From Dechloromonas denitrificans (GTDB lineage Bacteria > Pseudomonadota > Gammaproteobacteria > Burkholderiales > Rhodocyclaceae), in the NCBI RefSeq assembly GCF_020510685.1, contig NZ_CP075185.1, positions 3,916,001 through 3,980,000 of the forward strand: DNA of 64,000 nucleotides, written 5' to 3'. A model generated the notes under the pieces. It had not been told where the DNA came from. It saw only the letters and a list, made by a program, of their open reading frames with translations, and ran no database searches. Within the stretch, counting starts at the first letter, position 1. Every line of letters begins with the position of its first letter. Positions 165 to 61,803 of this stretch are shown here, one piece after another. The position numbers and the translations under genes are program-made.

Positions 165-1781
165 TTAGTTGAGACCAGCCTGGTGGTGTCCCTGGCGTTG
201 AGTCAGCGGCTTGACCCGTGGCTGCGGCGGTTCCCGTTTCGGCAATTGCCCGTGCAAGGCGCGCGGCGCACCCCGCGCGCCACTCGCGACATAGTCGGCC
301 AACAGGGCTGAGCGAGCGGTTGGCGCCGGCCAGCCGCTGCGGGCTACCAGATAATCGAAGAGAAGATCGACCAGCGATTCCGGGGTCAGGCCGGTCGTCT
401 TCCCAGTGCTTTGCCACAGCCAGTCGGAAAAATCGAGAAATGCCTGAAACGGTGAAGGTTCGGTGCGGGCCGCAGCCTCCCCCGACGCTGGTTGCCACTG
501 ACCGAGCAGCAGCGGCAGGGTTTGCTTGAACCGCCCCGAGTTGGCAAGCATGTCCCAGTAGCGCGCGAAGCGGCCGAAGCGCTGCACGGTGGCGGCATCA
601 ACAGCCCCGGTTTGGCACACGGAGTACGGCGGGTTTTCGTCATAGAGCATGCCGTACTCGGCTGTGTGCCGGGTAATCGGGGTGCCGCGCAAGCGTTTCA
701 AGATGCCCAGTTGAATTTCGTGCGGCCGCAGGTCATACAGGCGGTCGAACCCGGCGGCAAAGCTATCCAGCGTTTCGCCGGGCAAGCCGAAAATCAGATC
801 GGTGTGCAGGTGGGCATGCGACGCCTCGACCAGCCAGCGCAGGTTGGCTTCAGCCTTGGCGTTGTCCTGCCGGCGCGAGATGCGTTGCTGGACGTCGATG
901 TTGAAGCTCTGAATACCCACCTCGAACTGCAGCACGCCGGACGGAAACCGGGCGATCATCGCCTTGAGCCGGTCTGGCAGATGGTCCGGCACGACTTCGA
1001 AATGAACGAACAGTGCGTCAGCCGGCGAGGTGGCATCGGCGGCAGGCAGTCGGTCGAGAAAGAACTGCAGGATACGGACGGAAACATCGATTTTCAGGTT
1101 GAAGGTTCGGTCGACAAACTTGAAATTGCGCGCACCGCGCCGATACAAGCCGTCCATCTCGGCCAGGAAGCGCTCGAGATCAAAGGCCCAGGCAGTCTTG
1201 TCGAGAGCGCTCAAACAGAACTCGCACTTGAACGGACAACCGCGCGAAGCCTCAACGTAGAGCAGGCGATGCGCCAGATCGGCAGCAGAATACTCGGCGT
1301 AGGGCAGCACCAACTGGTCGAGTGCCGGCTGCTCGCCGGCGATCACCTTGCTCAAGGGACGCGGGCCATGCAGCAGAGCCCGGCACAGCTTGGCAAAGCT
1401 CAGATCGCCCCAGCCGGTAATGACATGATCGGCCAGCCGGGTGATCTCTTGTTCGTTCGTTTCATGGCTGACCTCGGGACCACCGAGAATCACCTTGATG
1501 TCCGGCCGCGCCGCCTTGAGCAAGCGCAGCACTGCCGTCGTCTGCAACACATTCCAGATATAGACGCCGAAACCGATGATCGGCGGCGTAGACGCCAGCC
1601 CGGGCACGAGCAGCAACAGCTCATCGACGATTTCCTGAGCCGGGCGGCCGATGGTGAATTCGCGCAACGCGGTCCGTGGCTTCAGGTCGCCCATGTTGGC
1701 CAGCAGATAGCGCAAGCCCAGGGAGGCATGAATGTACTTGGCGTTGAGCGTCGTCAGGACAATGCTCGGCGGATTGATCAC
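165..1781 (-). CDS. B12-binding radical SAM protein
   Basis: The protein has 538 residues. Its N-terminal third (about 1-140) looks like a cobalamin-binding Rossmann domain of the type found in B12-dependent radical SAM enzymes. The radical SAM core follows, with the [4Fe-4S]/SAM motif CPFKCEFC near residue 182 preceded by EASRG. The C-terminal part (about 370-500) resembles the DUF4080 domain often attached to this subfamily. The substrate cannot be told; relatives include methyltransferases and ring-closing enzymes. The start is GTG at 1781 (INPPSIVL follows) with only a weak GAG upstream. It lies downstream of the cspA terminator, so it probably has its own promoter in the short gap. Confidence 0.8.
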   Translation of the reverse strand: MINPPSIVLTTLNAKYIHASLGLRYLLANMGDLKPRTALREFTIGRPAQEIVDELLLLVPGLASTPPIIGFGVYIWNVLQTTAVLRLLKAARPDIKVILGGPEVSHETNEQEITRLADHVITGWGDLSFAKLCRALLHGPRPLSKVIAGEQPALDQLVLPYAEYSAADLAHRLLYVEASRGCPFKCEFCLSALDKTAWAFDLERFLAEMDGLYRRGARNFKFVDRTFNLKIDVSVRILQFFLDRLPAADATSPADALFVHFEVVPDHLPDRLKAMIARFPSGVLQFEVGIQSFNIDVQQRISRRQDNAKAEANLRWLVEASHAHLHTDLIFGLPGETLDSFAAGFDRLYDLRPHEIQLGILKRLRGTPITRHTAEYGMLYDENPPYSVCQTGAVDAATVQRFGRFARYWDMLANSGRFKQTLPLLLGQWQPASGEAAARTEPSPFQAFLDFSDWLWQSTGKTTGLTPESLVDLLFDYLVARSGWPAPTARSALLADYVASGARGAPRALHGQLPKREPPQPRVKPLTQRQGHHQAGLN

Positions 1782-1799
1782 GGAAAAAACTCGGCTAAC

Positions 1800-1828
1800 A
1801 AAAAGCCCGGCTTGCGCCGGGCTTTTTT
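1800..1828 (-). terminator. Rho-independent terminator of cspA
   Basis: A GC hairpin (AAGCCCGGC, loop TTGC, GCCGGGCTT) is flanked by A-rich and T-rich runs. Read on the minus strand it follows the cspA stop codon by 25 bp and ends in a T run, so it should terminate cspA before the radical SAM gene. The A/T runs on both sides mean it could work in either direction. Confidence 0.85.
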
Positions 1829-1853
1829 CGTTCAGAAAACGATGTGAGCAGTA

Positions 1854-2057
1854 TTACTCAGGCTTGATGTTGCTAGCCTGCAGGCCCTTCGGGCCGGTCG
1901 TCACGTCGAAGCTGACTTTCTGGCCTTCGGCCAGGGTCTTGAAGCCGCTGGAGACAATTGCTGAAAAATGTGCAAAAAGGTCTTCACCACCCTGGTCCGG
2001 CGTAATAAAACCAAAACCCTTTGAATCATTGAACCACTTGACGGTACCTGTTGCCAT
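1854..2057 (-). CDS. cspA: Cold-shock protein (CspA family)
   Basis: This is a 67-residue single cold-shock domain, the standard family length. The RNA-binding motifs are visible: KGFGFI (RNP1) at about residues 15-20 and DLFAHF (RNP2) at about 27-32. The start is ATG at 2057 (MATGTVKWF), with GGAGA about nine bases upstream; an in-frame ATG five codons earlier lacks this spacing. Family members bind single-stranded RNA/DNA and act as RNA chaperones, not always under cold control. The 5' leader contains two mutually exclusive hairpins (2082-2103), and a terminator follows the gene, so it is a single-gene unit. Confidence 0.95.
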
Positions 2058-2081
2058 GCCTTGAATCTCCAAAAATTAAAC

Positions 2082-2103
2082 GGGGCTTAGCCCCTACGTA
2101 GGG
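2082..2103 (-). promoter_or_regulatory. Two overlapping palindromes in the cspA leader
   Basis: GGGGCTTAGCCCC at 2082-2094 forms a 5-bp stem with a 3-nt loop. CCCTACGTAGGG at 2092-2103 is a perfect 12-bp palindrome. They share 2092-2094, so an RNA cannot form both at once. They lie 25-46 nt upstream of the cspA ATG, just 5' of its ribosome binding site. The cspA leader of E. coli is a known RNA thermoswitch; a similar role here is inference. Confidence 0.45.
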
Positions 2104-2260
2104 CGAATATCAAGACAGCACGGTACAGAAGGGGTATTGCGCCGCATAAAGCGGATACCAAACCAACATACGACAGCAGCACTTGAAAATCGCTGAACCT
2201 CACTATGCCTTGCATTTGATCTGAGGACAAATGGTATTTGCTGAAAATCGCAGTTAATTC

Positions 2261-2280
2261 TGAAATAACTCCTTATTTCA
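2261..2280. promoter_or_regulatory. Perfect inverted repeat, candidate operator
   Basis: TGAAATAA-CTCC-TTATTTCA is an 8-bp perfect inverted repeat with a 4-bp centre. It sits in the 343-bp gap between cspA (minus) and the ATP-grasp gene (plus), about 200 bp upstream of cspA and 137-206 bp upstream of the plus-strand gene. I cannot assign a regulator. I see no gene in the rest of the gap (2073-2416); it is AT-rich, especially at 2345-2385 where promoter-like TATAAA/TATATG strings occur. Confidence 0.4.
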
Positions 2281-2416
2281 CCGCAAATTGGCCATACCGA
2301 CCCTGGCAACCGGGTAGACCGCTGCGCCAAGTCAGGGTCGGCCGGTGCAATATAAAGTAAGCTTATATGCTTAATTACACACAAAGGCAGAGCCGGACGC
2401 ATGGCGAGAAGATTTT

Positions 2417-3703
2417 TTGACGACCACCGCCAAAGCCATCGCTAAAACCGTTCCGACCAGTCCGCCACCCGACACCGACCGCAAGATGACCAATCATTCC
2501 GCTACCCCCTTCCTGGGCCTCGCTCCTTTCCTGCGCATGAGCATCGCCGGCGGCGATCTGCGCCAAGTCGCCCAGAGCCTGCTGGAGCAAGCCGGCAACG
2601 AGCAGACCAATGCCGCTCTGTGGATGAATCTGTCCACCGCTTTTTTCTCCATCGGCCAAAGAGAGATGGGCTTGTCGATACAGGAACAGGCGCTGCTGCT
2701 GCAGCGCACCTACCGGATTCCGGCGCCCCGGCAGCCGGCCCGCTTTCGCCTGCTGATGCTGATGGCGGCCGGCGATCTGGCTGAAAACACGCCGCTCGAC
2801 TGCCTGCTCGAAAATGGCGATATCGACCTGATCTTCTATTACGCCAGCCCCGACGCCCCGCTGCCGCCCAGCCTGCCGGCCCACGACGCCCTGCTCGTCG
2901 CGATTGCCGATGGCGAGGCCAACCGCCCGATCCTACAAGGACTCGAAGCCTTGCTGCGCGATTGGCCCAAGCCGGTGCTCAACGCCCCCCAGCACATTCC
3001 GAATACCGAACGGGGTGCCGCCAGCGCGCTGCTCCAGCAGATTCCCGGCTTGTTGATGCCGCCCACCCGGCAGATCAGCCGCGCCGCGCTGCAGGCGATC
3101 GCCGGCGGCGATGCCCGGTTGAGCGACGTCTTCGCCGACTGCCAGTTTCCGGTCATCCTGCGCCCGGTCGGCTCCCAGGCCGGCCGCGACCTGGCCAGGA
3201 TCGACGATCTTCCGGGCATCACGCGCTATCTGGCCGGCGTCGCCGACCCGAGCTTCTACCTGTCGCGCTTCATCGATTACACCGACGCCAATGGCGTCTT
3301 CCGCAAATACCGGATCGCACTGATTGCCGGTCAGCCGTTTGCCTGTCACATGGGCATCTCGGCGCACTGGATGATTCACTACGTCAATGCCGGGATGTAC
3401 GAAGACAGTGCCAAGCGGGCCGAAGAAGCGGCCTTCATGGACAATTTTGCCGCCTTCGCCGAACGCCATGGCGACGCGCTCAAGGCGATTTATCAGCGCG
3501 CCAAGCTCGACTACCTGTGTATCGACTGCGCCGAAACGCGGGACGGCGAGCTGCTGATCTTCGAAATCGACCACGTCATGGTGGTGCACGCCATGGACCC
3601 CGCCGACCTCTTTCCCTACAAGCAGGAACACATGCTGAAAGTCCGCCGGGCGTTCGAGAATCTGCTTTTCGGCCTGAGCGCACCTCAGCCGCTGGCACTG
3701 TGA
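2417..3703 (+). CDS. ATP-grasp domain protein with TPR-like N-terminus
   Basis: The protein has up to 428 residues. Residues about 35-95 look like a helical tetratricopeptide-type pair (AGGDLRQVAQSLLEQ, NAALWMNLSTAFFSIGQ). The C-terminal half resembles an ATP-grasp fold: PVILRPVGSQAGRDLARI is a nucleotide-binding-type strand/loop, and LLIFEIDHVMVVHAM carries the acidic metal-binding end. ATP-grasp enzymes ligate a carboxylate to an amine or thiol; the substrate is unknown. The start is uncertain: a TTG at 2417 has GAGAAG upstream, while an ATG at 2486 (MTNHSATPF) is also plausible. It is followed after 13 bp by the SerC-like gene, so the two are probably co-transcribed and may act in one pathway. 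Confidence 0.7.
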   Translation: MTTTAKAIAKTVPTSPPPDTDRKMTNHSATPFLGLAPFLRMSIAGGDLRQVAQSLLEQAGNEQTNAALWMNLSTAFFSIGQREMGLSIQEQALLLQRTYRIPAPRQPARFRLLMLMAAGDLAENTPLDCLLENGDIDLIFYYASPDAPLPPSLPAHDALLVAIADGEANRPILQGLEALLRDWPKPVLNAPQHIPNTERGAASALLQQIPGLLMPPTRQISRAALQAIAGGDARLSDVFADCQFPVILRPVGSQAGRDLARIDDLPGITRYLAGVADPSFYLSRFIDYTDANGVFRKYRIALIAGQPFACHMGISAHWMIHYVNAGMYEDSAKRAEEAAFMDNFAAFAERHGDALKAIYQRAKLDYLCIDCAETRDGELLIFEIDHVMVVHAMDPADLFPYKQEHMLKVRRAFENLLFGLSAPQPLAL

Positions 3704-3716
3704 ACGGGCCACGACG

Positions 3717-4829
3717 ATGAACAGAATGCCAAACAACCCGCTGAACAGCCTGAATTTTTCCGGGGGGCCGGGCGTCCTGCCGGAAAGCGTTTTGCAGCAG
3801 GTGCAGGAAGCGATCCGGGCGGTACCGGAGGTCGGCCTTTCGATCCTTGGGATCAGTCATCGTTCGGACTGGTTCGCCGCGGTCGTCGCCGAGCTCGAAG
3901 CCAATATCCGCAGCCTGATGAATCTGCCCGCCGACTACCACGTTCTTTTCCTGCAGGGCGGCGCGACGCAGCAGTTTTCAATGCTCCCGATGACGCTGCT
4001 GGCCGGCCAAGCCACCCCGGCCGACTACCTGCACACCGGCTACTGGAGCGGCAAGGCGCTGCCCGAGGCGCGTCGCGTCGGGCCGGTGCGCATCGCCTGG
4101 AGCGGCCAGCCGGGCGGCTTCCGGCATTTGCCGGATGACGCCGAACTGGATTTCCAGGCGGACGCCCCCTACCTTCATTACGTCTCGAACGAAACCGTCG
4201 AAGGCCTGCAGTTCCACCGCGTCCTCGGCCGCGACGACGTGCCGCGCATCTGCGACATGTCCTCCGATTTCCTCTCGGCGCCCGGCGACTTCGAGCGATT
4301 TTCGCTGATCTACGCCCATGCCCAGAAAAACATCGGGCCGGCCGGCGTCACCGTGGTCGTCGTCAAGGACGCATTGCTCAAGGACGCCCCCGACACGCTG
4401 CCGGGCTTTCTCGACTACCGGGCGCAGATCGCCGCCCATTCGATTTACAACACGCCGCCGGTTTTCGCCATCTACGTCGTCTTGCTGGTCAGCCGCTGGC
4501 TGCGCGACGAAATTGGCGGCCTGGCCGCGATGGATCAACGCAATACCGAAAAATCCCGGCAGCTCTATCAGGCGCTCGACGACAACAATGACTTTTACCT
4601 CGGGCGAGCGGCCGGCAAAGATCGCTCGAAGATGAACGTCGCCTTCAATTTGCCGAGCCCGGAACTCGAGCAGAAATTCATCGCCGCCGCGCTCGCCGCC
4701 GGTTTTTCCGGCCTGGCCGGACACCGCAGCATTGGCGGAATCCGCGCCTCGCTGTACAACGGACTGCAATTGGCGGCGGTCGAAAAGCTGGTCGATTTCA
4801 TGGACCAATTCAAATCGCGTAACCGCTAA
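3717..4829 (+). CDS. serC: Phosphoserine aminotransferase family protein
   Basis: This 370-residue PLP enzyme is close to SerC over its whole length. Visible motifs are NFSGGPGVLP at the N-terminus, SHRSDWF, GGATQQF, the PLP-lysine segment HAQKNIGPAG (lysine near residue 205), NTPPVFAIY, KMNVAF and GHRSIGGIRASLYN. SerC converts 3-phosphohydroxypyruvate and glutamate to phosphoserine, and in some bacteria also acts in pyridoxal phosphate synthesis. The usual partners pheA, hisC and gyrA are absent. It is instead paired with an ATP-grasp gene 13 bp upstream, so it may be a paralogue with another substrate. A second ATG lies three codons downstream. Confidence 0.78.
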   Translation: MNRMPNNPLNSLNFSGGPGVLPESVLQQVQEAIRAVPEVGLSILGISHRSDWFAAVVAELEANIRSLMNLPADYHVLFLQGGATQQFSMLPMTLLAGQATPADYLHTGYWSGKALPEARRVGPVRIAWSGQPGGFRHLPDDAELDFQADAPYLHYVSNETVEGLQFHRVLGRDDVPRICDMSSDFLSAPGDFERFSLIYAHAQKNIGPAGVTVVVVKDALLKDAPDTLPGFLDYRAQIAAHSIYNTPPVFAIYVVLLVSRWLRDEIGGLAAMDQRNTEKSRQLYQALDDNNDFYLGRAAGKDRSKMNVAFNLPSPELEQKFIAAALAAGFSGLAGHRSIGGIRASLYNGLQLAAVEKLVDFMDQFKSRNR

Positions 4830-4946: not shown

Positions 4947-5735
4947 ATGGTGCGCATCTTTCTGCTGCTTCTCGCGCTGCTGGCGGCCTCCCCGGCGGTT
5001 TTTGCCGAGGACAGCGCAGTCGATCGCATCAGCGCCAACAAGACGCTGCGCGTCTGCATCTGGCCGGACTATTTCGGCATCAGCTACCGCGACCCGAAAA
5101 CGCAGCAACTGTCCGGCATCGATATCGACATGGCCAAGGCGCTCGGCCGCGACCTCGGCGTGCGGGTCGAATTCATCGACAGCTCGTTCGCCCGGCTGAT
5201 CGCCGACCTTACCGAGGAGCGCTGCGACATCGCCATGTTCGCCATCGGCATCACCCCGCTGCGCGTCGAAAAGCTGCGCTTCACCAAGCCGCACCTGGCC
5301 AGCGACATCTACGCCATCACCACCCAGAGCAACCGCCGGATCAAGACCTGGAATGACATCGACAAGCCGGGCGCCGTAGTCGCCGTCGCCAAGGGCACGC
5401 TGCACGAACCGGTAATGGCCGGCAAGTTGAAATTCGCGACGCTCAAGGTCTTCGATACGCCGCATGCCCGCGAACAGGAAGTCGAATCCGGCCGGGCCGA
5501 CGTCTTCATGACCGACTTTCCTTATAGCCTGCGCATGCTGAAGACCACCGACTGGGCGCGACTGATCAAACCGGACAGCGCCTACCACATCACCCCCTAC
5601 GCCTACGCCATGCGCCCCGGCGACGACCGCTGGCACACCCGGGTCGAGCAGTTCGTCGCCGACGTCAAGCGCAGCGGCGAACTGAAGGCGGCAGCCGAAC
5701 GGCACGGCCTGCTGGCCATCGCCGTCCTCGACTGA
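4947..5735 (+). CDS. Periplasmic solute-binding protein, family 3
   Basis: The protein has 262 residues with a clear signal peptide ([20 protein letters not shown], cleavage before EDS). The mature part matches family 3 binding proteins: [61 protein letters not shown] and the hinge region AVAKGTLHE. The ATG at 4947 places the signal peptide at the N-terminus; two in-frame upstream starts would add a charged extension. No ABC permease or ATPase is nearby. The next gene, 11 bp away, is a membrane histidine kinase, so this protein may report ligand to a sensor rather than feed a transporter. Confidence 0.85.
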
Positions 5736-5746
5736 GCGGGCTGAGC

Positions 5747-8700
5747 GTGGCCAACCCACCTTCCCAAGGGTTCACCAAGTTACTGGTCGGCCTGCAGATC
5801 CTGCTGGTCATTTCGGTGGCCGCCGGCACGCTGTCGAATATTTACCGGCTGCGCCAGGAAACCCTCGACCGGCATCTGAAGGAAGCCGAAACCCAGGCCC
5901 GCGTCTTCGAGGACCAACTGACCCAGACGCTGAATCTGGCCAGCCTGACTCTGCAAAGCCTGCCGCAGTCGATCGACCTGCCGGCCGGCGCGCCACCGGG
6001 CCGGGCCGTTGCCGAACACGCCACCAGCCAGCTCGAACTGATCCAGCGTCGGCTGCTCTTCCTGCGCTCGCTGTCGGTTGCCGATAGCGACGGGACGATC
6101 ATCGCCAGCTCGAATCCGGAGAATATCGGCCGGCGGGTGGCCGTCGACAATTTCCAGCCCCGGCCGGCAGGATCGGCGGCGGCCAATTTCCTGCGCCTCG
6201 GGGCGCCCTGGTCCGGGCGGGACTTCGCCGACGGCTCCCCGGCCACCCCGGCCCAACCGGTAGCGGCCGATGCCGCGAGCTTTGTCCCGGTCGTTCGCGA
6301 AGAACTCTCTGGCGATCGCCGTCTGAAATTGCTGGCCGCCCTCAACCCCGATTATTTTCTCAACCACTTCGCCCGCCATATCGATCCGGCAACCACCCAG
6401 ATCGAGATCGTCGCCTACGACGGAAGCCTCGTCGTGACGACGCGCGACGACCGGCCAGTCGGCGCCCGGCACCTCCCGGAGGCGACATTACAGCGCCTGC
6501 TCGGCGATGAAATCGGCAGTATCGCCGACGACCGCGAGGACCAGCCCGACCGGCCGATGCTGACCGCCTTCCGCAGCTCGCGCAGCTATCCGCTGCTGGT
6601 CATGGTCCATGTCGATCGCACCCTGGCGCTCGCCAAGTGGCAGGCCGAAACGCGGCAGACCGTGACCACGGTGGGTATCGTGCTGCTCGTCCTGCTGGCC
6701 CTGACCAGTCTGCTCATCAGCCGCGTCCGCAAAAGCCTGCGGGCCGAGGGGCGCATGCAGAAAGAACGGCAACTGGCTGCCCGGGTCTTCGAACACAGCA
6801 CCAACGGCGTCATCATCACCGATGCCGAGCGCCGGATCGTTGCCGTAAACCCGCACCTCGAGCAGGTCACCGGCTATACCAGCGGCGAGCTGATCGGCGA
6901 CGACCCGCGCCGCTTCGCGTCGGGCACCCATGAAGCCGCTTTCTACCAGGCGATGTGGAACGAATTGACGACCAACGGCGTGTGGCGCGGCGAGATCGTC
7001 AACCGGCGTAAGGATGGCACGCTGATCGACGAATGGCTGACCATCTCGGTGGTGCGCGACGAGGCCGGCAAGCTGCTCAACTACGTCGGCGTCTTCGAGG
7101 ACATCTCCGAGGAGCGCCGGCGCGACAGCCAGATCCGCCGCCTGTCGCAGGCCGTCGAACAGAGTCCGACGAGCATCGTCATCACCAATCTCGAACCGGC
7201 CATCGAGTACGTCAATCCGGAATTCTTCCGCACCACCGGCTATACGGCGGAGGAAGTCATCGGCCAGAATCCGCGCTTTCTGCAGTCCGGCCTGACCCCG
7301 CCAGCGAGCTATGCGGCGATGTGGAAGACGCTGAGCCACGGCGAGATCTGGGAGGGCGAATTCGTCAACAAGCGGCGGGACGCTTCGCTCTATTACGAAC
7401 GCGCCATCATCGCGCCGATCCGCGACGCCAACGAGCGGATCACCCATTACGTCGCGATCAAGCTCGACATCACCGAACAGCGCCTGCAAGGCATCCGCCT
7501 GCAACGCCAGCTCGACGCCTTGCGCGCCCTCAACGGCATCGTCGCCATCACCGGCCTCGACCCCCGCGAAACAATCCGCGCCGCGCTGCAGGTTGCCGTC
7601 AAGCACCTCCATCTCGAATACGCCATCGTCAGCCACATCGACCGGCCAGCCGGCGCCTACCGCATCGAAGTCCAGGTTTCGCCCGATCAGACCCTGGCCG
7701 ACAACCAACACCTCGAACTCGGCATCACCTATTGCAGCACGACCCTCGAGCACGGCGAGTTGCTGGCGATTGCCGACGCCGCGCATTCGACCTATCGGCT
7801 CCACCCCTGTTTCCGCGAATTCAACCTGGCGGCTTATCTCGGGGCGCCGATCTCGGTCAATGGCAAGGTTTACGGGACCATCTGCTTCTCCTCGGCCACC
7901 GCCCGCGAACACGACTTCGACCCCTCCGATCTCGAATTCGTCCGGATGCTGGCCAACTGGGCTGGCGCCTTCATCGAGCGCATGCTGGCCAACAACGAGC
8001 TGGAAGAAGCGCGCTCCGCCGCCGAAGCGGCCAGCCTGGCCAAGAGCAGCTTCCTGGCCAACATGAGCCATGAAATTCGCACTCCGATGAATGGCGTCAT
8101 CGGCATGGCCGACCTGCTGCTCGGCAGCCCGCTGACCGCCGAACAGCGCGATTTCGCCGAAACCATCCGGCACAGCGCCGACGGCCTGCTCGGGCTGATC
8201 AACGACATCCTCGACTTTTCCAAGGTCGAGGCCGGCAAGCTGCAGCTCGAAAGCATTCCTTTCGCGCCGGCCGCCCTGCTCCACGACATCCTGGCGCTGC
8301 TCGCCCACCAGGCCAATCTCAAGCAGATTTCGCTCGCCACCGAACTCGATCCGGCACTCCCCGGCCAACTGCTCGGCGACCCCGGCCGGCTGCGCCAGAT
8401 CCTGCTCAATCTGGTCGGCAATGCCATCAAGTTCACCCAGGCCGGCAGCGTTACCGTTCGCCTCGAGAGCCGGCCGATCGTCGGCCGCGACGACCAGATC
8501 CGGCTCTGCCTGACGATCCGCGACACCGGTATCGGCATGACCCCGGAAACCATCGCCAATCTCTTTTCACCGTTCGAGCAGGGCGACGCTTCGACGACCC
8601 GGATGTTCGGCGGCACCGGCCTCGGCCTGTCGATCTGCAAGCGCCTCGTCGAACTGATGGGCGGCACGATCAGCGTCGACGCGACCCCGGGGGCCGGCAG

Positions 8701-53770: not shown

Positions 53771-56700
53771 TCAGCCAAGCCACGCCTCGAGATCCTCCGG
53801 CACCATCGGTTTGGCGAAAAAGTAGCTCTGAATGTTGGTGACACCCTCGGTTTTCAGGAAATCCACCTGCGCCGAGGTTTCGGCTCCCTCCGCCACGACC
53901 TCGACTTTGAAACTCGAGCCGAGCGCGAGGATCGTCCGCACGATGGTGACGTCGTCGGCATTGCCGGGAATGCCGTCGATGAACGATTTGTCGATCTTGA
54001 AACAGGTGATCGGGAAGAGCTTGATGTGCGCCAGGGACGAATATCCGGTGCCGAAGTCGTCGACCGACAGGAATATGCCCAAAGCGCGCAGCCCCTCGGT
54101 AATCTTGCGAGCCGGTTCGCTAGCTTCGAGCGCCCCCTCGGTTATCTCCAGTTCAAGCTGATCCGGCGCGATCCCCGATTTTTCGATGATGCCGGCGACC
54201 ACCGCGACAAACGATTCGCGCAATTGCGAGGGCGCCACATTGACCGCCACCTTGGGGATGCCGACGCCGCGGCTCGACCAGTCTTGCATCTGCCGGCAGG
54301 CTTCGGCCAGCACCCAGTTGCCGAGATCGGACATCAGGCCGACATCCTGGACGGTCGGCAGAAAGTCGCCCGGGACCAAAATGCCGCGTAGTGGATGCTG
54401 CCAGCGGACCAGGGCTTCGACGCCCTTGACCGCACCGTTTCGCGGATCGACCTGGGGCTGGTAGACCAGGAAAAATTGCTGCTGCTGGAAGGCGTGGCGC
54501 AACTCGCTGGTCATCGTCAGTTTCTTGCCGAGGTCTTCCGCCATGTCCTTGGCGTAGAACTCGAAACAGTTGCGGCCCCGGTCCTTGGCGCGGTACATCG
54601 CGGTATCCGCGGCCTTGATCAGATCGGCCGGTTTTTGCCAGTCATCCGGATAGATGCTGATCCCGATGCTCGCCGTCGGAATCAGCTCGTGTCCGGCAAG
54701 ATAAATGGGTTCGGCGAGCAGCCTCAGCATCCGGTCCATGGCATCGCAGATCTGCTGATGATCGGTGACATCTTCCATCACCAGAACGAATTCGTCGCCA
54801 CCCCAGCGGGCCAGCGTGTCGTTCTTGCGAGTCGCCGACAACAGCCGTTCGGCAACCGACTTGAGGTAGCGGTCGCCAACCGCATGGCCCAGGGTGTCAT
54901 TGATGATCTTGAAACGATCGAGGTCGATGAAGACGACCGAGGCGCCCCCGCCGTGGCGCTTGCTCCGCTCCAGGGTCTGCGCCAGCTTGTCGGAGAAGTT
55001 CAGGCGGTTGGGCAGGCCGGTCAGCGTATCGTGATTGGCAAGATGGTAGAGATTCTCCTCGGCCTGCTTGGCTTTCGAAATGTCGCTGAAGACCGCGACA
55101 TAGTTTTGCACTTGCCCGTCGGGTTCGAGGATGGAGGAGATGCTGCCCCATTGCGGGTAGATTTCGCCGTTCTTGCGACGATTCCAGATTTCGCCGGCCC
55201 AGCGCCGCTTTTCCCGCAGCTCGCGCCAGAGTTCTTCATAGAAATGCGGGGTATGAACGCCCGACTTGAGGATGGCCGGAGTTTTGCCGACCGCCTCGTC
55301 GGAAGAGAACCCGGTTATTTCGCTGAAAGCCCGGTTCACCGTGGCGATGCGACCGAGATGGTCGGTCACCATCACCGCCTCGATCGCCTGGTCGAGAATC
55401 ACCTCGGTGGCGGCATTCCGCCCGACCTGTGCTTGCTGCGGCGCCTGGCTGAAGACGACGACGGCGCCGACGATCTTGCCGCCATCGACCAGCGGCGTGC
55501 AGACAAACTCGAGAAACAGCCCCGGCGAGCCGAGCTTGCCCTGCTGGCGCTGCCTGCCCTGGCGGGTTTCGCCATCGGACAGGGTGGCGAGAAATGGGCA
55601 GTTTGTCGCGACCAAGGTGTCGCCTCGCACATCGTCCGACCAAGCGAACACCTCGCAACAATTACTGCCGAGCAGTTCATCGTCATTGCGCCGGAGTATC
55701 TTGGAGGCCAGTTCGTTGGCGTAGATGATAAGCCCCCCGGCATCGAGGCTGACCAACCCTTCGCCGGCCGCCTCGAGAATCTGGGCATTGCGGCGATGAA
55801 CGTTCTCGATCGCCAACTGATAGTTGTAGCGCTGCGTGACATCGCGGGCATTCAGCAGAATCTCCCCCTGGCCCAGTCCGCCCAGCGTGTGCTTCAGTGT
55901 CGCTTCGACCCATAGATCCCGACCGTCGGGACGCCGGCCGCGAACCACCCGGGTTGCCGTCGCTCCCAATTGCCGGATGTCGGCCAGCAATTCCCGGAAC
56001 ACGACGGCCCCGTCTTCGAGAACGTCGGCCAGCGTCAGGCCGACGATCTGGCCGCTATCCCGGCCGAGCAGTTCCCGACACGCCGGCGAGGCGAAATGAA
56101 ACTGGCCGCCCAGGTCGAGGCGGGCAATCATGTCGGTCGAATTGTCGGCCAGCAGGCGATAACTTTCCTCACTGCTCTTCAAGGCTTTCTGGGCGAGCAC
56201 CTCGATCAGCGCGAGGGTCAGCGAGTTGGCGGCATCCGTTTCGACCTGCGACCAGGGCAGCGATTTGTCGTGGTAAGTCTCGATCCAGGTTGCGAAGGAT
56301 TTGCGCGGCGAGATGCGAACGCCGGCCGGACTGCTCACCACCGTTTTTTGCGGATTGCCCGCCCAGCGGAGGGTGCGCAGGACGCCGGGGCGGAACCACA
56401 TGACGAAATTTCGCATTTCGTGGTCCAGCGGCGCCACCATCATGCCGCTCAGATGCCGGGCGGCCGACTGTCGGGGCACTCCGAGATCGGCAAAGGCGTG
56501 ACCGAGATCGTCAGTATGGAGCATTGGACTGACCGGCCTCTGCCGCAACAACTCGACCAACAGATCGACTTCGTCGGCGTGCGGCGTATCGCCCAGCAGA
56601 TGGCGCTTGCCGTCGATGGTGACGACCGCCCCGACGGCGCGGACGAGACCCAACAGCTTGTCACCGATCAGATGAATCACTGCATCGAGGTCATCCGACG

Positions 56701-57748
56701 AGCGGATCAGCCCGGTCAGTTCGTACAGGATGTCGCGGATACGCCGGCTCAGCGCGTCGCGATCGCTTTGATCCATATTGATCAGCTTGAGCGAAATCGC
56801 CCGGCCGATGAACTCGTCCAGTTCCCGCGATTTCAGCGTGACGTATTTCGGCGTGAAATGATGGCAGGCGATCAGGCCCCAGAGACGGTCGTTTTGCACC
56901 AGCGATATGCTCAGGCTCGAACGAACGCCCATGTTGCGCAGGTATTCGACGTGGACCGGCGACATACTGCGCAACCAGGAGTAGCTCAGATCAAGCGGCT
57001 CGCCATCGTCCGGCAGCGACAACAGGGGGACGCGCTCGGCATCGACATCGACGATGATCCGGACCAGATTCCGGGTGTAGAGCGCCCGGGCCTGGGGCGG
57101 AATATCGCCGGCCGGGAAGCGATTGCCGAGATAGGAATCCGCCTCGTCCGTCTTGTTTTCGGCAATCACCTCGCCGTCCCAATTGGCATCGAAGCGGTAC
57201 ATCATCACCCGGTCGAAACCGGTCAGCAGACGGACCTGATCGACCGCCATCTGGGCATAGCGGTCGAGATCGGTTTCCGAATCCAGCTTCCAGAGGGCAT
57301 CGCGAATCGGAATGAAGAGTTCGTGAAAGACGTCGCCGGCGGGCGCTTGCTCTTGCTCCACCTCGATGACCAGATTGTCGCCGGCGCGGAAGATCTGGGC
57401 GTCGTATTTCCGGACACCGTCGCCGACCGGTAGCGCCAGCGACCAGATCATCGCACCCGGGACGGCCAATTGCTCCTTGATGACCTCGAGATGGGCGACT
57501 TGCTCTCGACCGATCAATTCGTGCAAAGGTTTGCCGATCGCCTGCTCCGCACTGAACGGGAAGATCAGCTCGAGATTGGCGCTGGCCGTCGTGACGATCA
57601 ACCGGGCGGCATCGACCGCAATCAACACGCCGACCGGCTGAATGCTGCCGATCTGGTGAATCGGTTCGCTGGCGCAGACCTTGAGCGCAGCTTCGAGATC
57701 GAGCTGCTGCTCAGCCTCAGACCGGCTGGTGAGCGAGGTGATAGTCAT
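53771..57748 (-). CDS. bphP: Bacteriophytochrome with PAS, GGDEF and EAL domains
   Basis: This 1325-residue photoreceptor has PAS (20-125) with biliverdin Cys25 (KVCASEPIHQIG), GAF (145-320: FPAGDIPPQARALY, SPVHVEY, LWGLIACHHF), PHY (330-510: tongue PRKSF), three PAS units (about 525-905), GGDEF (910-1075, motif GGDEF at 983-987) and EAL (1090-1325, EALVRW at 1111, DDFGTGYSS). Both c-di-GMP synthase and phosphodiesterase motifs look intact. The usual IQPHG motif reads IQPVG. It overlaps the heme oxygenase gene by 32 bp, which supplies biliverdin. No histidine kinase is attached. ATG 57748 is preferred over TTG 57751. Confidence 0.94.
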   Translation of the reverse strand: MTITSLTSRSEAEQQLDLEAALKVCASEPIHQIGSIQPVGVLIAVDAARLIVTTASANLELIFPFSAEQAIGKPLHELIGREQVAHLEVIKEQLAVPGAMIWSLALPVGDGVRKYDAQIFRAGDNLVIEVEQEQAPAGDVFHELFIPIRDALWKLDSETDLDRYAQMAVDQVRLLTGFDRVMMYRFDANWDGEVIAENKTDEADSYLGNRFPAGDIPPQARALYTRNLVRIIVDVDAERVPLLSLPDDGEPLDLSYSWLRSMSPVHVEYLRNMGVRSSLSISLVQNDRLWGLIACHHFTPKYVTLKSRELDEFIGRAISLKLINMDQSDRDALSRRIRDILYELTGLIRSSDDLDAVIHLIGDKLLGLVRAVGAVVTIDGKRHLLGDTPHADEVDLLVELLRQRPVSPMLHTDDLGHAFADLGVPRQSAARHLSGMMVAPLDHEMRNFVMWFRPGVLRTLRWAGNPQKTVVSSPAGVRISPRKSFATWIETYHDKSLPWSQVETDAANSLTLALIEVLAQKALKSSEESYRLLADNSTDMIARLDLGGQFHFASPACRELLGRDSGQIVGLTLADVLEDGAVVFRELLADIRQLGATATRVVRGRRPDGRDLWVEATLKHTLGGLGQGEILLNARDVTQRYNYQLAIENVHRRNAQILEAAGEGLVSLDAGGLIIYANELASKILRRNDDELLGSNCCEVFAWSDDVRGDTLVATNCPFLATLSDGETRQGRQRQQGKLGSPGLFLEFVCTPLVDGGKIVGAVVVFSQAPQQAQVGRNAATEVILDQAIEAVMVTDHLGRIATVNRAFSEITGFSSDEAVGKTPAILKSGVHTPHFYEELWRELREKRRWAGEIWNRRKNGEIYPQWGSISSILEPDGQVQNYVAVFSDISKAKQAEENLYHLANHDTLTGLPNRLNFSDKLAQTLERSKRHGGGASVVFIDLDRFKIINDTLGHAVGDRYLKSVAERLLSATRKNDTLARWGGDEFVLVMEDVTDHQQICDAMDRMLRLLAEPIYLAGHELIPTASIGISIYPDDWQKPADLIKAADTAMYRAKDRGRNCFEFYAKDMAEDLGKKLTMTSELRHAFQQQQFFLVYQPQVDPRNGAVKGVEALVRWQHPLRGILVPGDFLPTVQDVGLMSDLGNWVLAEACRQMQDWSSRGVGIPKVAVNVAPSQLRESFVAVVAGIIEKSGIAPDQLELEITEGALEASEPARKITEGLRALGIFLSVDDFGTGYSSLAHIKLFPITCFKIDKSFIDGIPGNADDVTIVRTILALGSSFKVEVVAEGAETSAQVDFLKTEGVTNIQSYFFAKPMVPEDLEAWLG

Positions 57749-58373
57749 CAAGAAGGGATTCCATCAAGGAAAATGTGGTTTTGGCGGATGACATAGCACT
57801 GTCGCGAATCTCGTCGTGAGTCAGAGTGGCATCGATAAACGCTTCGGTCTGCTGCCAGTACGAGGCAATATCCGGTCCGTAACCATGGAAGAAACGGGCG
57901 CCCTGCGTCGCGGTCAATCCCAGATGGGCTTCCAGATGCCTGGAAATGACCTGGCCACCCAGCGACGACCCTTCGATGGTGTACAACACCCCAACCAGCT
58001 GCCCGATATCGCGCAGCTCGACAGCCGTGCTCGGCGACTTCGGCAGAAAGGCCGGCGCCTCCGGGTCAATCCCGAACTGCATCAGGTCATCCTCGATCCA
58101 TTGCAGCTTGCGGCGTCGGTCGTAGGAAAAGGGGAGCATTCGCGTCGCCAGAAACTGGCTGATCGCCCCTTCGATGATTTTGTAAAAATGGTAGTAGGCG
58201 ACCAGCACCAACTGGTACCTGTCCAGCGAATAGTCGGGACGGGTGATGCCGGACAGCATGGGGTGCTGATTGAGGCGGACGTGTTCGCCATGGGTGCTGT
58301 CGCGCAGGAACTGGCGGACGGCCGAGATGGGAGCTTGGTTATTCAAGACGGGGCGATCAAGTGGGGTGGTCAA
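57717..58373 (-). CDS. bphO: Biliverdin-producing heme oxygenase BphO
   Basis: The protein has about 218 residues. The heme-binding His segment STHGEHVRLNQHPML, the helix YQLVLVAYYHFYKIIEGAI and the distal GQLVGVLYTIEGSSLGGQVISRHLEAHLG match bacteriophytochrome-linked heme oxygenases. It cleaves heme to biliverdin IX-alpha, CO and Fe. The probable start is TTG at 58373, overlapping the stop of the MerR gene (TTGA); the frame is open farther upstream but inside that gene. Its end overlaps bphP by 32 bp. Confidence 0.92.
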   Translation of the reverse strand: MTTPLDRPVLNNQAPISAVRQFLRDSTHGEHVRLNQHPMLSGITRPDYSLDRYQLVLVAYYHFYKIIEGAISQFLATRMLPFSYDRRRKLQWIEDDLMQFGIDPEAPAFLPKSPSTAVELRDIGQLVGVLYTIEGSSLGGQVISRHLEAHLGLTATQGARFFHGYGPDIASYWQQTEAFIDATLTHDEIRDSAMSSAKTTFSLMESLLDDYHLAHQPV

Positions 58374-59266
58374 TGGGACGGGCGTCCGGTCGACAGCGAA
58401 GCCACCGCCTGCCGCAAGTCGGCAAAAACATGGATGCCCTGCGGCGGCGAGACGATATCGGCAGTGGCCGCCCCGCCAGCCCAGACTTCCGTCGCCTCGG
58501 GTAACAGGGAACGCAGATGGAGGAGAAAAGGCCGCACCCGGCGCCGCGGATAGGCAAAGCTGAAGGACAGCGCAACGATGTCGGCCCGACATGCCAGCGC
58601 AGCCTTGGCCAGATCCTCCGCACCAATGTGCGGCCCGACATTGACGCAATCGACACCATGATCGGCGAGGACGGCCTGGGCCATCAACAGGCCGAGACTG
58701 TGCAGCTCGTCGGGCGGCGTGGCGAAGATGATCCGGGGACGGCACTCCTGCCGAATCGCGGCGCCGATCGCTGCTTGCAACTGACGCTGAAGCAGCCCGG
58801 TGCACAGATGCTCATGGAAAACCTCGATTTCCCCCCTGATCCAGGCTTCGCCGATCGCCGTCGTCAGCGGTGCCACCGTTAACAGGACGAAGTCGGTAAT
58901 GCTTTGCCGGCGGGATTCCTCAGTCAACAGCGCATCGAGGCCGGCAAGATCGGCCTCTTTCAACAGTTCGATGGCCCGCTGGGTCGACGCCAGCCATTGC
59001 GGACAGGCATCCGCGCAGCCAATCGCCTGCGCCAGCTTTTCCAGTTCGAGCAAGGGCTTGCCGACGATCAAGGCGGGACGAAACCCGGCGTCGAGCAGGC
59101 GCTTGATCAGCCGCAACTGGGCTACCTGCTCCTTCGGGTAGCCCGGCGTATCACCGGTAAGCGGCTGGGGAAAACCGTAGCGGGACCGCCATTTGCGCAA
59201 CAGATCCTTGCCCAGACCCGTTTCGCGCTCCAGATCCGTGGCATGGACGTTCGAAGAATAATTCAT
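58370..59266 (-). CDS. CarH/LitR-like B12-binding MerR regulator
   Basis: The protein has 298 residues. A MerR HTH (VHATDLERETGLGKDLLRKWRSRYGFPQP) is followed by a helical B12-cap domain with W-x9-EH (WIRGEIEVFHEH) and a cobalamin-binding fold with ExHxxG (DELHSLGLL). These are the signature residues of CarH, which binds adenosylcobalamin in the dark, represses DNA, and falls apart in light. The gene heads the bphO-bphP operon. An inverted repeat just upstream may be its own operator. Chromophore use is inference; a B12-independent CarA-like role is possible. Confidence 0.86.
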   Translation of the reverse strand: MNYSSNVHATDLERETGLGKDLLRKWRSRYGFPQPLTGDTPGYPKEQVAQLRLIKRLLDAGFRPALIVGKPLLELEKLAQAIGCADACPQWLASTQRAIELLKEADLAGLDALLTEESRRQSITDFVLLTVAPLTTAIGEAWIRGEIEVFHEHLCTGLLQRQLQAAIGAAIRQECRPRIIFATPPDELHSLGLLMAQAVLADHGVDCVNVGPHIGAEDLAKAALACRADIVALSFSFAYPRRRVRPFLLHLRSLLPEATEVWAGGAATADIVSPPQGIHVFADLRQAVASLSTGRPSH

Positions 59267-59294
59267 AGCGGCGGAGTATATGCCTAAAGGCCTA

Positions 59295-59319
59295 TGTCCG
59301 TTCCGTTATGTCACGGACA
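59295..59319 (-). promoter_or_regulatory. Inverted repeat upstream of the CarH-like gene
   Basis: TGTCCGT (59295-59301) and ACGGACA (59313-59319) are perfect inverse copies 11 bp apart, 29-53 bp upstream of the ATG. A TATACT -10-like string lies at 59280-59275. Size and place fit a self-regulatory operator for a MerR-type protein. No gene is seen in 59320-59450. Confidence 0.5.
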
Positions 59320-59450: not shown

Positions 59451-59486
59451 GGAAAAACCCCAGTAACTCGTTGAGTTACTGGGGTT
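59451..59486 (-). terminator. Terminator after tRNA-Pro
   Basis: AACCCCAGTAACTC/GAGTTACTGGGGTT is a perfect 14-bp stem with a 3-nt loop, followed on the minus strand by TTTTT. It ends the ispB-tRNA-Pro transcript. Confidence 0.93.
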
Positions 59487-60699: not shown

Positions 60700-61803
60700 A
60701 TGGATATTCGCTCGATCACCGCACCTGTCATTCAGGACCGTGAAGCGCTGGAGGAGTTCGCCGACGTCCTGACCGACCGCGCGCCCCAGATTGAACACGA
60801 CGTGGCACGGCTGCAGAAAAGTCCGGCCGACCGCGAGATCATCGCCGATCTTTTTCGCGCCATCCACAATATCAAGGGCGATGCATCACTGTGCAAGTTC
60901 GACCTGGGCGTCGCCATCGCCCATCCCATCGAAACGATGATGGGGCGCTTTCGGGAAGGCGAGATCCCCTTCTCCGATCTGCTCGCCGAAATGATCCTGC
61001 TGGCCGTCGACCGCCTTGAACTGGCGACCGATGCGGTGCTTGCCGGAAAATCCGTCGAAAATTTTCGTCTGCTCGATCTGGTTCAGGGACTCGACACCCT
61101 TGCCCTGGCCAGCAACGAAGATGTCGATACCCGGTGCGCCGAACTGATTGAGACGGTAACCGGTTTTCCATCGGTCATCGGGGAAATATCGAGTCGTGCC
61201 CCGCGCGTCGCAACGCCGAAGAGCGAACAGAAAAATGCCAGCTCCGACCTGCAGTTCTTCCGCTCGCTCGCCCTGCAGCTGGAAAGCCGGTCACCGCTTT
61301 TCAAGGGACGAACCATGCGCATCCTGCGTCTTGCCCTGGAAACCAACAAAACCGGCGGCAACGCCGTTGATCCGGTGCAACTCGAAGCGGCGGTTTATCT
61401 CCACGATGTCGGAATGATGCTGGTGCCGGAAGCCGTTTGGCTCAAAGTTGGAAAGATGACGCCGGAAGACAAGCGCCAACTGAACAACCACCCGGGGTTC
61501 GTCGCCGGCCTGTTGCAACGCATGCCCGGCTGGGAGGAGGCAGCCGAGATGGTCGCACAGCACCACGAGATGCCGGATGGCGGCGGCTATCCGAACCAAC
61601 TGCCTGCCCCGGAGATTTGTCCGGGCGCCAAGATTCTGGCGATCGTCGATGCCTTCGAGGCGGTGATGCTGAAACATATTCATCGCGGCAAGAATCGCTC
61701 GGTGCTCCGGGCCATTGCCGAGATCAACGCCTGCGACAAGCAATTCGCGCCGGAATGGATCGCTCCTTTCAATGCGGTTATCCGCAAGACCATCGAAAGC
61801 TGA
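60700..61803 (+). CDS. HPt-HD-GYP protein, probable c-di-GMP phosphodiesterase
   Basis: This 367-residue protein has an HPt domain (about 15-115) with the phospho-His in FRAIHNIKGDA (His about 56), and an HD-GYP domain (about 195-360): YLHDVGMM and HHEMPDGGGYP. Full HD-GYP enzymes have an extra His before the HD pair; here the matching site reads GRTMRI, and the Lys after HD is Met, so activity may be reduced. HPt plus HD-GYP would let phosphorelay control c-di-GMP. It is coupled to tcdA by TGATG. Confidence 0.85.
   Translation: MDIRSITAPVIQDREALEEFADVLTDRAPQIEHDVARLQKSPADREIIADLFRAIHNIKGDASLCKFDLGVAIAHPIETMMGRFREGEIPFSDLLAEMILLAVDRLELATDAVLAGKSVENFRLLDLVQGLDTLALASNEDVDTRCAELIETVTGFPSVIGEISSRAPRVATPKSEQKNASSDLQFFRSLALQLESRSPLFKGRTMRILRLALETNKTGGNAVDPVQLEAAVYLHDVGMMLVPEAVWLKVGKMTPEDKRQLNNHPGFVAGLLQRMPGWEEAAEMVAQHHEMPDGGGYPNQLPAPEICPGAKILAIVDAFEAVMLKHIHRGKNRSVLRAIAEINACDKQFAPEWIAPFNAVIRKTIES

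Follow-up and report, generated by a model that had tools for sequence, protein, structure and literature searches.

The locus analysed here raises the question of whether a receptor for one colour of light can decide if a bacterium builds a receptor for another. It lies in a stretch of 64,000 nucleotides from Dechloromonas denitrificans (contig NZ_CP075185.1, positions 3,916,001 to 3,980,000), referred to below as the window, and consists of three overlapping minus-strand genes, merR, bphO and bphP, behind an operator-like element at which the range given in a preliminary description of this DNA, made from the sequence alone, had ended (59319 is the outer edge of the element). The features on which the argument depends are as follows.

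58370..59266, minus strand: merR, regulator of the MerR type whose cobalamin-binding domain resembles that of CarH (subfamily A), 298 aa, start codon ATG at 59266
57717..58373, minus strand: bphO, heme oxygenase (biliverdin supply), TTG start, TTGA overlapping the merR stop codon
53771..57751, minus strand: bphP, bacteriophytochrome, 1326 aa, start codon TTG at 57751 or ATG at 57748
59295..59319, minus strand: operator-like element TGTCCGTGACATAACGGAACGGACA (TGTCCG-N13-CGGACA, inner GTGACA), an exact copy of the subfamily pattern
59275..59280, minus strand: -10-like hexamer TATACT, 8 nt before the ATG of merR

The reading preferred here, which is given roughly an even chance of being right, is that the regulator is a CarH-like adenosylcobalamin (AdoCbl) autorepressor which is released by green/blue light and which gates BphO and a phytochrome with cyclic di-GMP (c-di-GMP) output. 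In the dark and in the presence of AdoCbl, the regulator would sit on the sequence TGTCCGTGACA-N8-CGGACA over the presumed -35 region and keep expression of merR-bphO-bphP low; green/blue light would break the Co-C bond, and the regulator would release the DNA. The heme oxygenase, as the source of biliverdin, and the phytochrome would then be made together, and the phytochrome would convert red/far-red light into a change in c-di-GMP.

Products of the three genes

The preliminary description had taken the genes as overlapping on one strand, with the residues by which CarH holds cobalamin in the first product, a heme oxygenase as the second and a phytochrome with intact GGDEF and EAL motifs as the third, all in a bacterium from a group usually regarded as non-phototrophic, and these identifications hold up. 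The coordinates confirm the overlaps on the minus strand (bphP overlaps bphO by 32-35 nt), and the genome, 4.62 Mb in one contig, has no match to the photosynthetic reaction-centre family PF00124. In the Pfam scan the regulator scores above the cut-offs for MerR_1 and B12-binding and below that for B12-binding_2 (20.3 against 23), and its closest solved relatives are Thermus thermophilus LitR/CarH structures (3whp, 2.4e-23; 5c8d, 2.6e-23). Its Trp, its EH pair and its ExHxxG motif align with W131, E141-H142 and H177 of CarH (numbered as in the CarH papers), so that equivalents of all four AdoCbl-pocket residues are present, and these are invariant in the aligned relatives. The Rossmann B12-binding domain with its His ligand is complete, the fold of the regulator model matches the CarH light-sensing domain, and the combination of a MerR helix-turn-helix with a B12-binding domain is shared with CarH/LitR. 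The genome also contains a corrinoid adenosyltransferase gene and five cobalamin riboswitches. By analogy with CarH, the window regulator is predicted to bind AdoCbl, to respond to light and to repress. It misses the 400-bit cut-off of the NCBIfam CarH equivalog with 108.7 bits, but because a canonical-looking second B12-MerR protein of the same genome, paralog B, also reaches only 115 bits, this cut-off is too narrow to inform on membership.

BphO scores 54.7 bits against the Pfam Heme_oxygenase model (cut-off 23), and the stretches around its proximal His and its distal GG align with heme oxygenase 1 (HO-1) at E 1.2e-5. BphP has the Pfam domain order PAS_2-GAF-PHY-PAS-PAS-PAS-GGDEF-EAL. Its photosensory motifs are intact (Cys26, PAGDIP in place of PASDIP, SPVH, ACHH and the PRxSF tongue), their roles in the chromophore module being assumed here, and BphP is predicted to bind biliverdin covalently and to be under red/far-red control, as in the bacteriophytochrome family. 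The output motifs are likewise intact (RWGGDEF with RxxD, VEAL, DDFGTGYS, EITE and AEG), and the protein is a candidate c-di-GMP enzyme with both sets of active-site motifs preserved. In one of the relatives described below, L071, the phytochrome reads CASEAIQ as against CASEPIH near the chromophore Cys, and the L071 regulator is the most divergent among the three-gene loci.

Conservation of the three-gene unit

In a sample of 60 genomes, 36 of them from the same genus (the genome of the window included, and some incomplete), the regulator was detected at E<1e-70 in six members of the genus (the window genome, G002, G005, G012, G014 and G028), and bphO and bphP lie directly behind it in all six. 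Two more three-gene sets, in Pseudomonas sp. UMAB-08 (L050) and in a Proteobacteria bacterium (L071), bring the neighbourhood survey that the preliminary description had called for to eight distinct genomes with the same gene order. Because this order is kept while MerR identity to the window protein is 46-58% in the other seven genomes, a chance arrangement is excluded. The contig in which the L050 set sits is titled Pseudomonas sp. UMAB-08, which may point to a transfer between classes or to a mislabelled assembly.

A seventh member of the genus, G009, carries full-length bphO-bphP behind what is left of the regulator gene:

L091:9000-9359 (G009 C51): regulator remnant of 119 aa, which retains the beginning of the DNA-binding head and the C-terminal end but has lost the B12 domain

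Upstream of the remnant the operator is kept (three mismatches, 27 nt before the start), together with a TATGAT hexamer. The persistence of bphO-bphP and their promoter after loss of the sensor is best explained, in this single case, if the regulator restrains the operon.

A wide distribution of the set found no support. Among 369 genomes of the class, which include few members of the genus, BphO of this kind (E<=1e-25) was found only in the window genome and in G449, where the 2.2 kb examined contained no MerR match. Among 300 genomes of the order, which likewise include few members of the genus, there were 14 BphO matches at E<=1e-5, the strongest being those of the window genome, G164 (1.5e-46) and G201 (5.7e-23), and the stretches examined around BphO in the latter two contained no MerR match above 50 bits.

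The operator-like element and the promoter

Comparison of the regions upstream of the regulator and its relatives yielded the subfamily pattern TGTCCGTGACA-N8-CGGACA, of which the window element is the only match with up to two mismatches in its own genome; the left part, TGTCCGTGACA, has a single occurrence there. The eight three-gene promoters contain 22 half-sites (mean 2.2 and maximum 7 in 500 dinucleotide shuffles), and 22 other promoters contain 52 (mean 5.3 and maximum 11 in 500 dinucleotide shuffles). The full pattern is matched with up to three mismatches in 26 of the 30 promoters (none in 11, one in 7, two in 4 and three in 4), a level reached by none of 6,000 mononucleotide shuffles, although the pattern was derived from these same promoters, which include near relatives (L056/L058; L063/L072/L082) and so are not independent. 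Five of the eight three-gene loci have up to two mismatches, and the element stands 20-31 nt from the start codon in 24 of the 26 matching promoters. L074, which has no half-site, was left out of the count of 30, while L065 (short upstream region), L076-L080, L083 and L084 entered neither promoter count.

A scan of the 60 genomes, whose outcome does not depend on the way in which the pattern was derived, found the perfect element in four places, each being the promoter of the regulator or one of its relatives (G000, G005, G014 and G037). The idea that the element is a general regulon site was rejected: matches with up to two mismatches away from the regulator promoters in the 60 genomes numbered 11, as against 28 for a reversed-pattern control. 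Relatives without bph genes carry the operator at their own promoters, and autoregulation therefore looks like the general rule in this subfamily.

Hexamers resembling a -10 element (4-5 of 6 matches to TATAAT, a count without a chance control) end 6-10 nt before the start codon in seven of the eight three-gene loci, L071 being the exception. Their position suggests that the operon transcript is leaderless or nearly so, in which case the element would cover the presumed -35 region, with its centre near -41 relative to the predicted transcription start.

Paralog B as a control

The second B12-MerR gene of the genome lies outside the window and looks like a canonical CarH/LitR:

C1:3994545-3995387, within L039:9519-10424 (G000 C1:3994518-3995423): paralog B, B12-MerR regulator

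It diverges from genes for a glutathione peroxidase, an FAD oxidoreductase, a DUF1365 protein and a cyclopropane synthase, a set known from LitR neighbourhoods. Upstream of it in the window genome are tandem 11-bp TGTnnA repeats at -35, -24 and -13. Among 16 B-type loci of the genus, three copies 11 bp apart are present in 12, two copies in L018, L021 and L022, and two copies 22 bp apart in L020, while the A-type element was not found upstream of the B-type genes at these loci, the best fits having 7-8 mismatches. Tandem 11-bp repeats of the form nnnnTnnACAn are described as the operator design of CarH (PMC9304148). Recovery of such repeats at paralog B shows that the procedure detects CarH operators when they are present, and the window regulator would have another operator. 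A second conserved palindromic stretch, resembling TTTGTCCTAGACAAA, lies upstream of paralog B towards the divergent genes (towards glutathione peroxidase in L039) and is possibly another operator.

The wider subfamily

The tree splits 30 A-type rows from nine B-type rows (100/100), and the 22 A-type rows without bphP in the stretches examined group together (100/100), whereas a single clade of the eight three-gene regulators has an approximately unbiased (AU) p value of 0.354, with L071 forming a long branch. The 38 loci retrieved with a pattern containing LRKWRxRYG comprise seven three-gene loci, the 22 others in the tree, L076 and L077, which grouped with paralog B, and those left out of the tree (L058, a near copy of L056, and L074, L078-L080, L083 and L084). 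The heads of the two groups also differ, with an A-type motif LRKWRxR: WRxR is present in 119 of 120 A-type matches (the remaining one being unreadable) and LRxWERRY in all nine B-type rows, where agreement in the A-type motif is circular for the 38 loci retrieved with that pattern and not for the phmmer matches.

Signalling-type genes were found among the neighbours at 12 of 17 scanned loci without bphP, a share which may be overstated because the 20 neighbours scanned, at 17 of the 22 loci, were chosen by eye (L064, L065, L069, L072 and L075 fell outside the scan). By Pfam they encode hemerythrin (L049, L063), Cache (L053), chemotaxis (L054, L061) and GGDEF-EAL proteins (L057, L060) and histidine kinases (L059, L062, L070, L073, L081); no signalling-type gene was found among the scanned neighbours at L051, L052, L056, L067 and L082. 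At nine of the 12 loci the signalling gene diverges from the regulator within about 320 bp, with the operator between the two genes. The regulator relative of L060 has GGDEF-EAL genes on both sides (386-3895 and 5694-8219), and the operator is present there as well. Hemerythrin-domain genes divergent from the regulator in L049 and L063, and in L082 by eye, hint at an oxygen or redox link. In L051, one of the 22 loci without bphP, a distant BphO match (36%, L051:2335-2913) lies on the strand of the regulator some 1.2 kb further downstream, and no phytochrome match was found on its 9-kb contig. The L062 stretch ends just behind the regulator, and bph genes are possible there.

Surroundings of the operon

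Upstream of the operon are a gene for tRNA-Pro, a terminator-like hairpin and a polyprenyl synthase gene, and downstream is a gene for a monomeric isocitrate dehydrogenase.

59453..59484, minus strand: terminator-like hairpin CCCCAGTAACTC-AAC-GAGTTACTGGGG-TTTTT, identified by eye between the operon and tRNA-Pro and unlisted by the consensus promoter scan

Beyond the polyprenyl synthase gene, a protein with Hpt and HD_5 domains (window 60700-61803, plus strand) is a possible signalling partner, and at the far end of the window a further B12-binding domain occurs in a 562-aa open frame (window 1389-1751, minus strand).

Weighing of the evidence

Several observations weigh against a light-released autorepressor. 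At the promoter, the consensus scan found no sigma-70 site and no good -35 at the start of the window operon, and with its centre some 41 nt before the predicted transcription start, the element would under these circumstances also suit an activator. The tandem 11-bp TnnACA repeat of CarH was not found at the operon promoter, the elements of L055, L066 and L068 have diverged to 7-8 mismatches, which is the level of shuffled sequence, with half-sites remaining, and the retention of bphO-bphP in G009, being a single case, could reflect a recent loss of the regulator. In the pocket, Ile follows the Trp where CarH has His132, and the H132A variant of TtCarH is reported to stay largely tetrameric in the light, an earlier report having found disassembly (PMC10442372). 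Position 132 is variable among proteins described as light-responsive too, CtMerR having Arg there, and across the 69-row alignment it is A in 41, S in 14, V in 5, K in 3, T in 3 and I, L and H in one each. The notion that Ile at this position is peculiar to the window protein was rejected, His being absent from 117 and present in one of 118 readable motifs (120 matches). The SignatureFinder motifs GxxW (as GEAW) and EH are present in the regulator and the full set of GxxW, EH, GxxH and GxxxP is not: GxxH is replaced by DxxH (DELH), at a position where only 5 of 69 relatives have Gly, and GxxxP, as placed on the regulator by our own mapping, by GxxxG (GPHIG), where 59 of 69 relatives have Pro and two have Gly.

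Because of the different operator, the change of His132 to Ile and the two differing signature positions, the window regulator is on sequence grounds assigned to a sister subfamily of CarH-like proteins that has an operator of its own, and not to CarH proper. The CarH-like circuit of the preliminary description is sustained as regards the gene set, the pocket, the fold, the conservation of the unit and a cis element, and weakened as regards His132, the signature positions and the 11-bp operator.

The most serious competing explanation is that the regulator binds AdoCbl and responds to light but activates, recruiting polymerase from about -41 to a promoter whose -35 is weak, in which case light or a lack of B12 would switch the operon off or change its expression the other way. 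Many MerR-family proteins activate transcription. The position of the element before a predicted leaderless start and the lack of a consensus -35 would suit such a role, and members of the family are termed activators (PMC9478572); however, the CarH proteins described repress in the dark (PMC9304148, PMC11796333), and in G009 bphO-bphP and the promoter are intact despite loss of the sensor domain, all of which leaves activation improbable, though a serious contender. Of the two signs of regulation, derepression by light is the more likely, repression fitting best while the geometry of the site would also allow activation. Somewhat less probable again is a regulator that uses the same pocket to read cobalamin supply or redox/oxygen instead of light, so that the phytochrome would be tied to B12 status. 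The AdoCbl pocket is kept while the light-state ligand His132 is absent, the final light state of CarH is reported to require oxygen (PMC10442372), and hemerythrin-domain genes adjoin the relatives in L049 and L063 by Pfam (in L082 the likeness was seen by eye, with no Pfam match at 1e-5); against this, the invariant W and EH motifs are reported as part of a light-response signature (PMC11796333), and the genes behind the regulator are those of a photoreceptor and its chromophore enzyme.

Two further explanations are much less probable than either of these. The operon might be a plain neighbourhood with no circuit, in which an autoregulator is merely co-transcribed with bphO-bphP, as would fit the operator at the promoters of relatives without bph genes; yet the overlaps, the single predicted promoter and the co-occurrence in six of six regulator-bearing genomes of the genus indicate that the downstream genes are part of the regulated unit, and a mere neighbourhood is judged quite unlikely. 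Least probable, by a small step, is that the phytochrome acts through the MerR protein as its effector, for which the adjacent genes and the precedent of PmlR2, a class II LitR of Pseudomonas mendocina acting for a short light-oxygen-voltage (LOV) protein (PMC9758184), could be cited. Class II LitRs are described as keeping only the four-helix-bundle part (PMC9758184), whereas the regulator here has the full B12 Rossmann domain with its His ligand, and its relatives adjoin other genes and showed no phytochrome in the stretches examined.

Relation to known systems and significance

The proposed autorepressor differs from CarH and class I LitR of T. thermophilus, B. megaterium and M. xanthus in having Ile in place of His132 and Asp and Gly at two signature positions, in its head (LRKWRxR as against LRxWERR), in its operator (TGTCCGTGACA-N8-CGGACA as against tandem 11-bp TnnACA repeats) and in its target, a phytochrome as against carotenoid or photoprotection genes. 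Bacteriophytochromes of the BphG1 type with GGDEF and EAL domains reportedly have a heme oxygenase gene next door, and we know of no B12-MerR regulator for GGDEF-EAL bacteriophytochromes with BphO. Anti-repressors of the AerR/AppA type have no DNA-binding head. GGDEF-EAL bacteriophytochromes with BphO (see PMC8846402) share their domain set and active-site motifs with the window BphP. The AerR/AppA-type B12 or SCHIC anti-repressors of purple bacteria tie B12 photoreception to gene control, as is proposed here, but are described as controlling photosystem genes (PMC5362033, PMC6199135), whereas the search of this genome matched no reaction-centre gene. The photocobilins SasPcob and AbDPcob join a CarH-like B12 domain to biliverdin, one of them with a diguanylate cyclase, and are described as holding both chromophores in one chain (PMC10979010, PMC11796333), whereas here the proteins are separate and the proposed link is transcriptional. 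PmlR2 resembles the window regulator as a LitR/CarH-family gene adjoining a second photoreceptor gene and differs from it as an effector of a LOV protein, described as having no B12 Rossmann domain (PMC9758184). Among the matches listed in a search of titles and abstracts, in which most subscription journals were outside the coverage, no CarH-like gene in a bphO-bphP operon was described.

It is a tentative proposal, for which the chances fall a little short of even, that these proteins form an undescribed subfamily of B12 light regulators with its own operator code and head motif, which has moved from photoprotection to gatekeeping other sensors and which in this branch forms a two-colour, two-stage circuit. 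The work supplies experiments with a defined operator and points to a way in which two CarH-like regulators could coexist in one genome without cross-talk, and the pair of operator and protein could serve as an orthogonal green-light switch in the laboratory. If the circuit operates as proposed, B12 photoreception would license another photoreceptor, together with a second-messenger output, in a bacterium that lacks a photosynthetic reaction centre, so that light of one colour may determine whether the cell is able to perceive a second colour; in the wider subfamily, short-wavelength light would decide which senses a cell builds. The link between the subfamily and sensory genes makes the question of why non-phototrophs see light testable at many loci.

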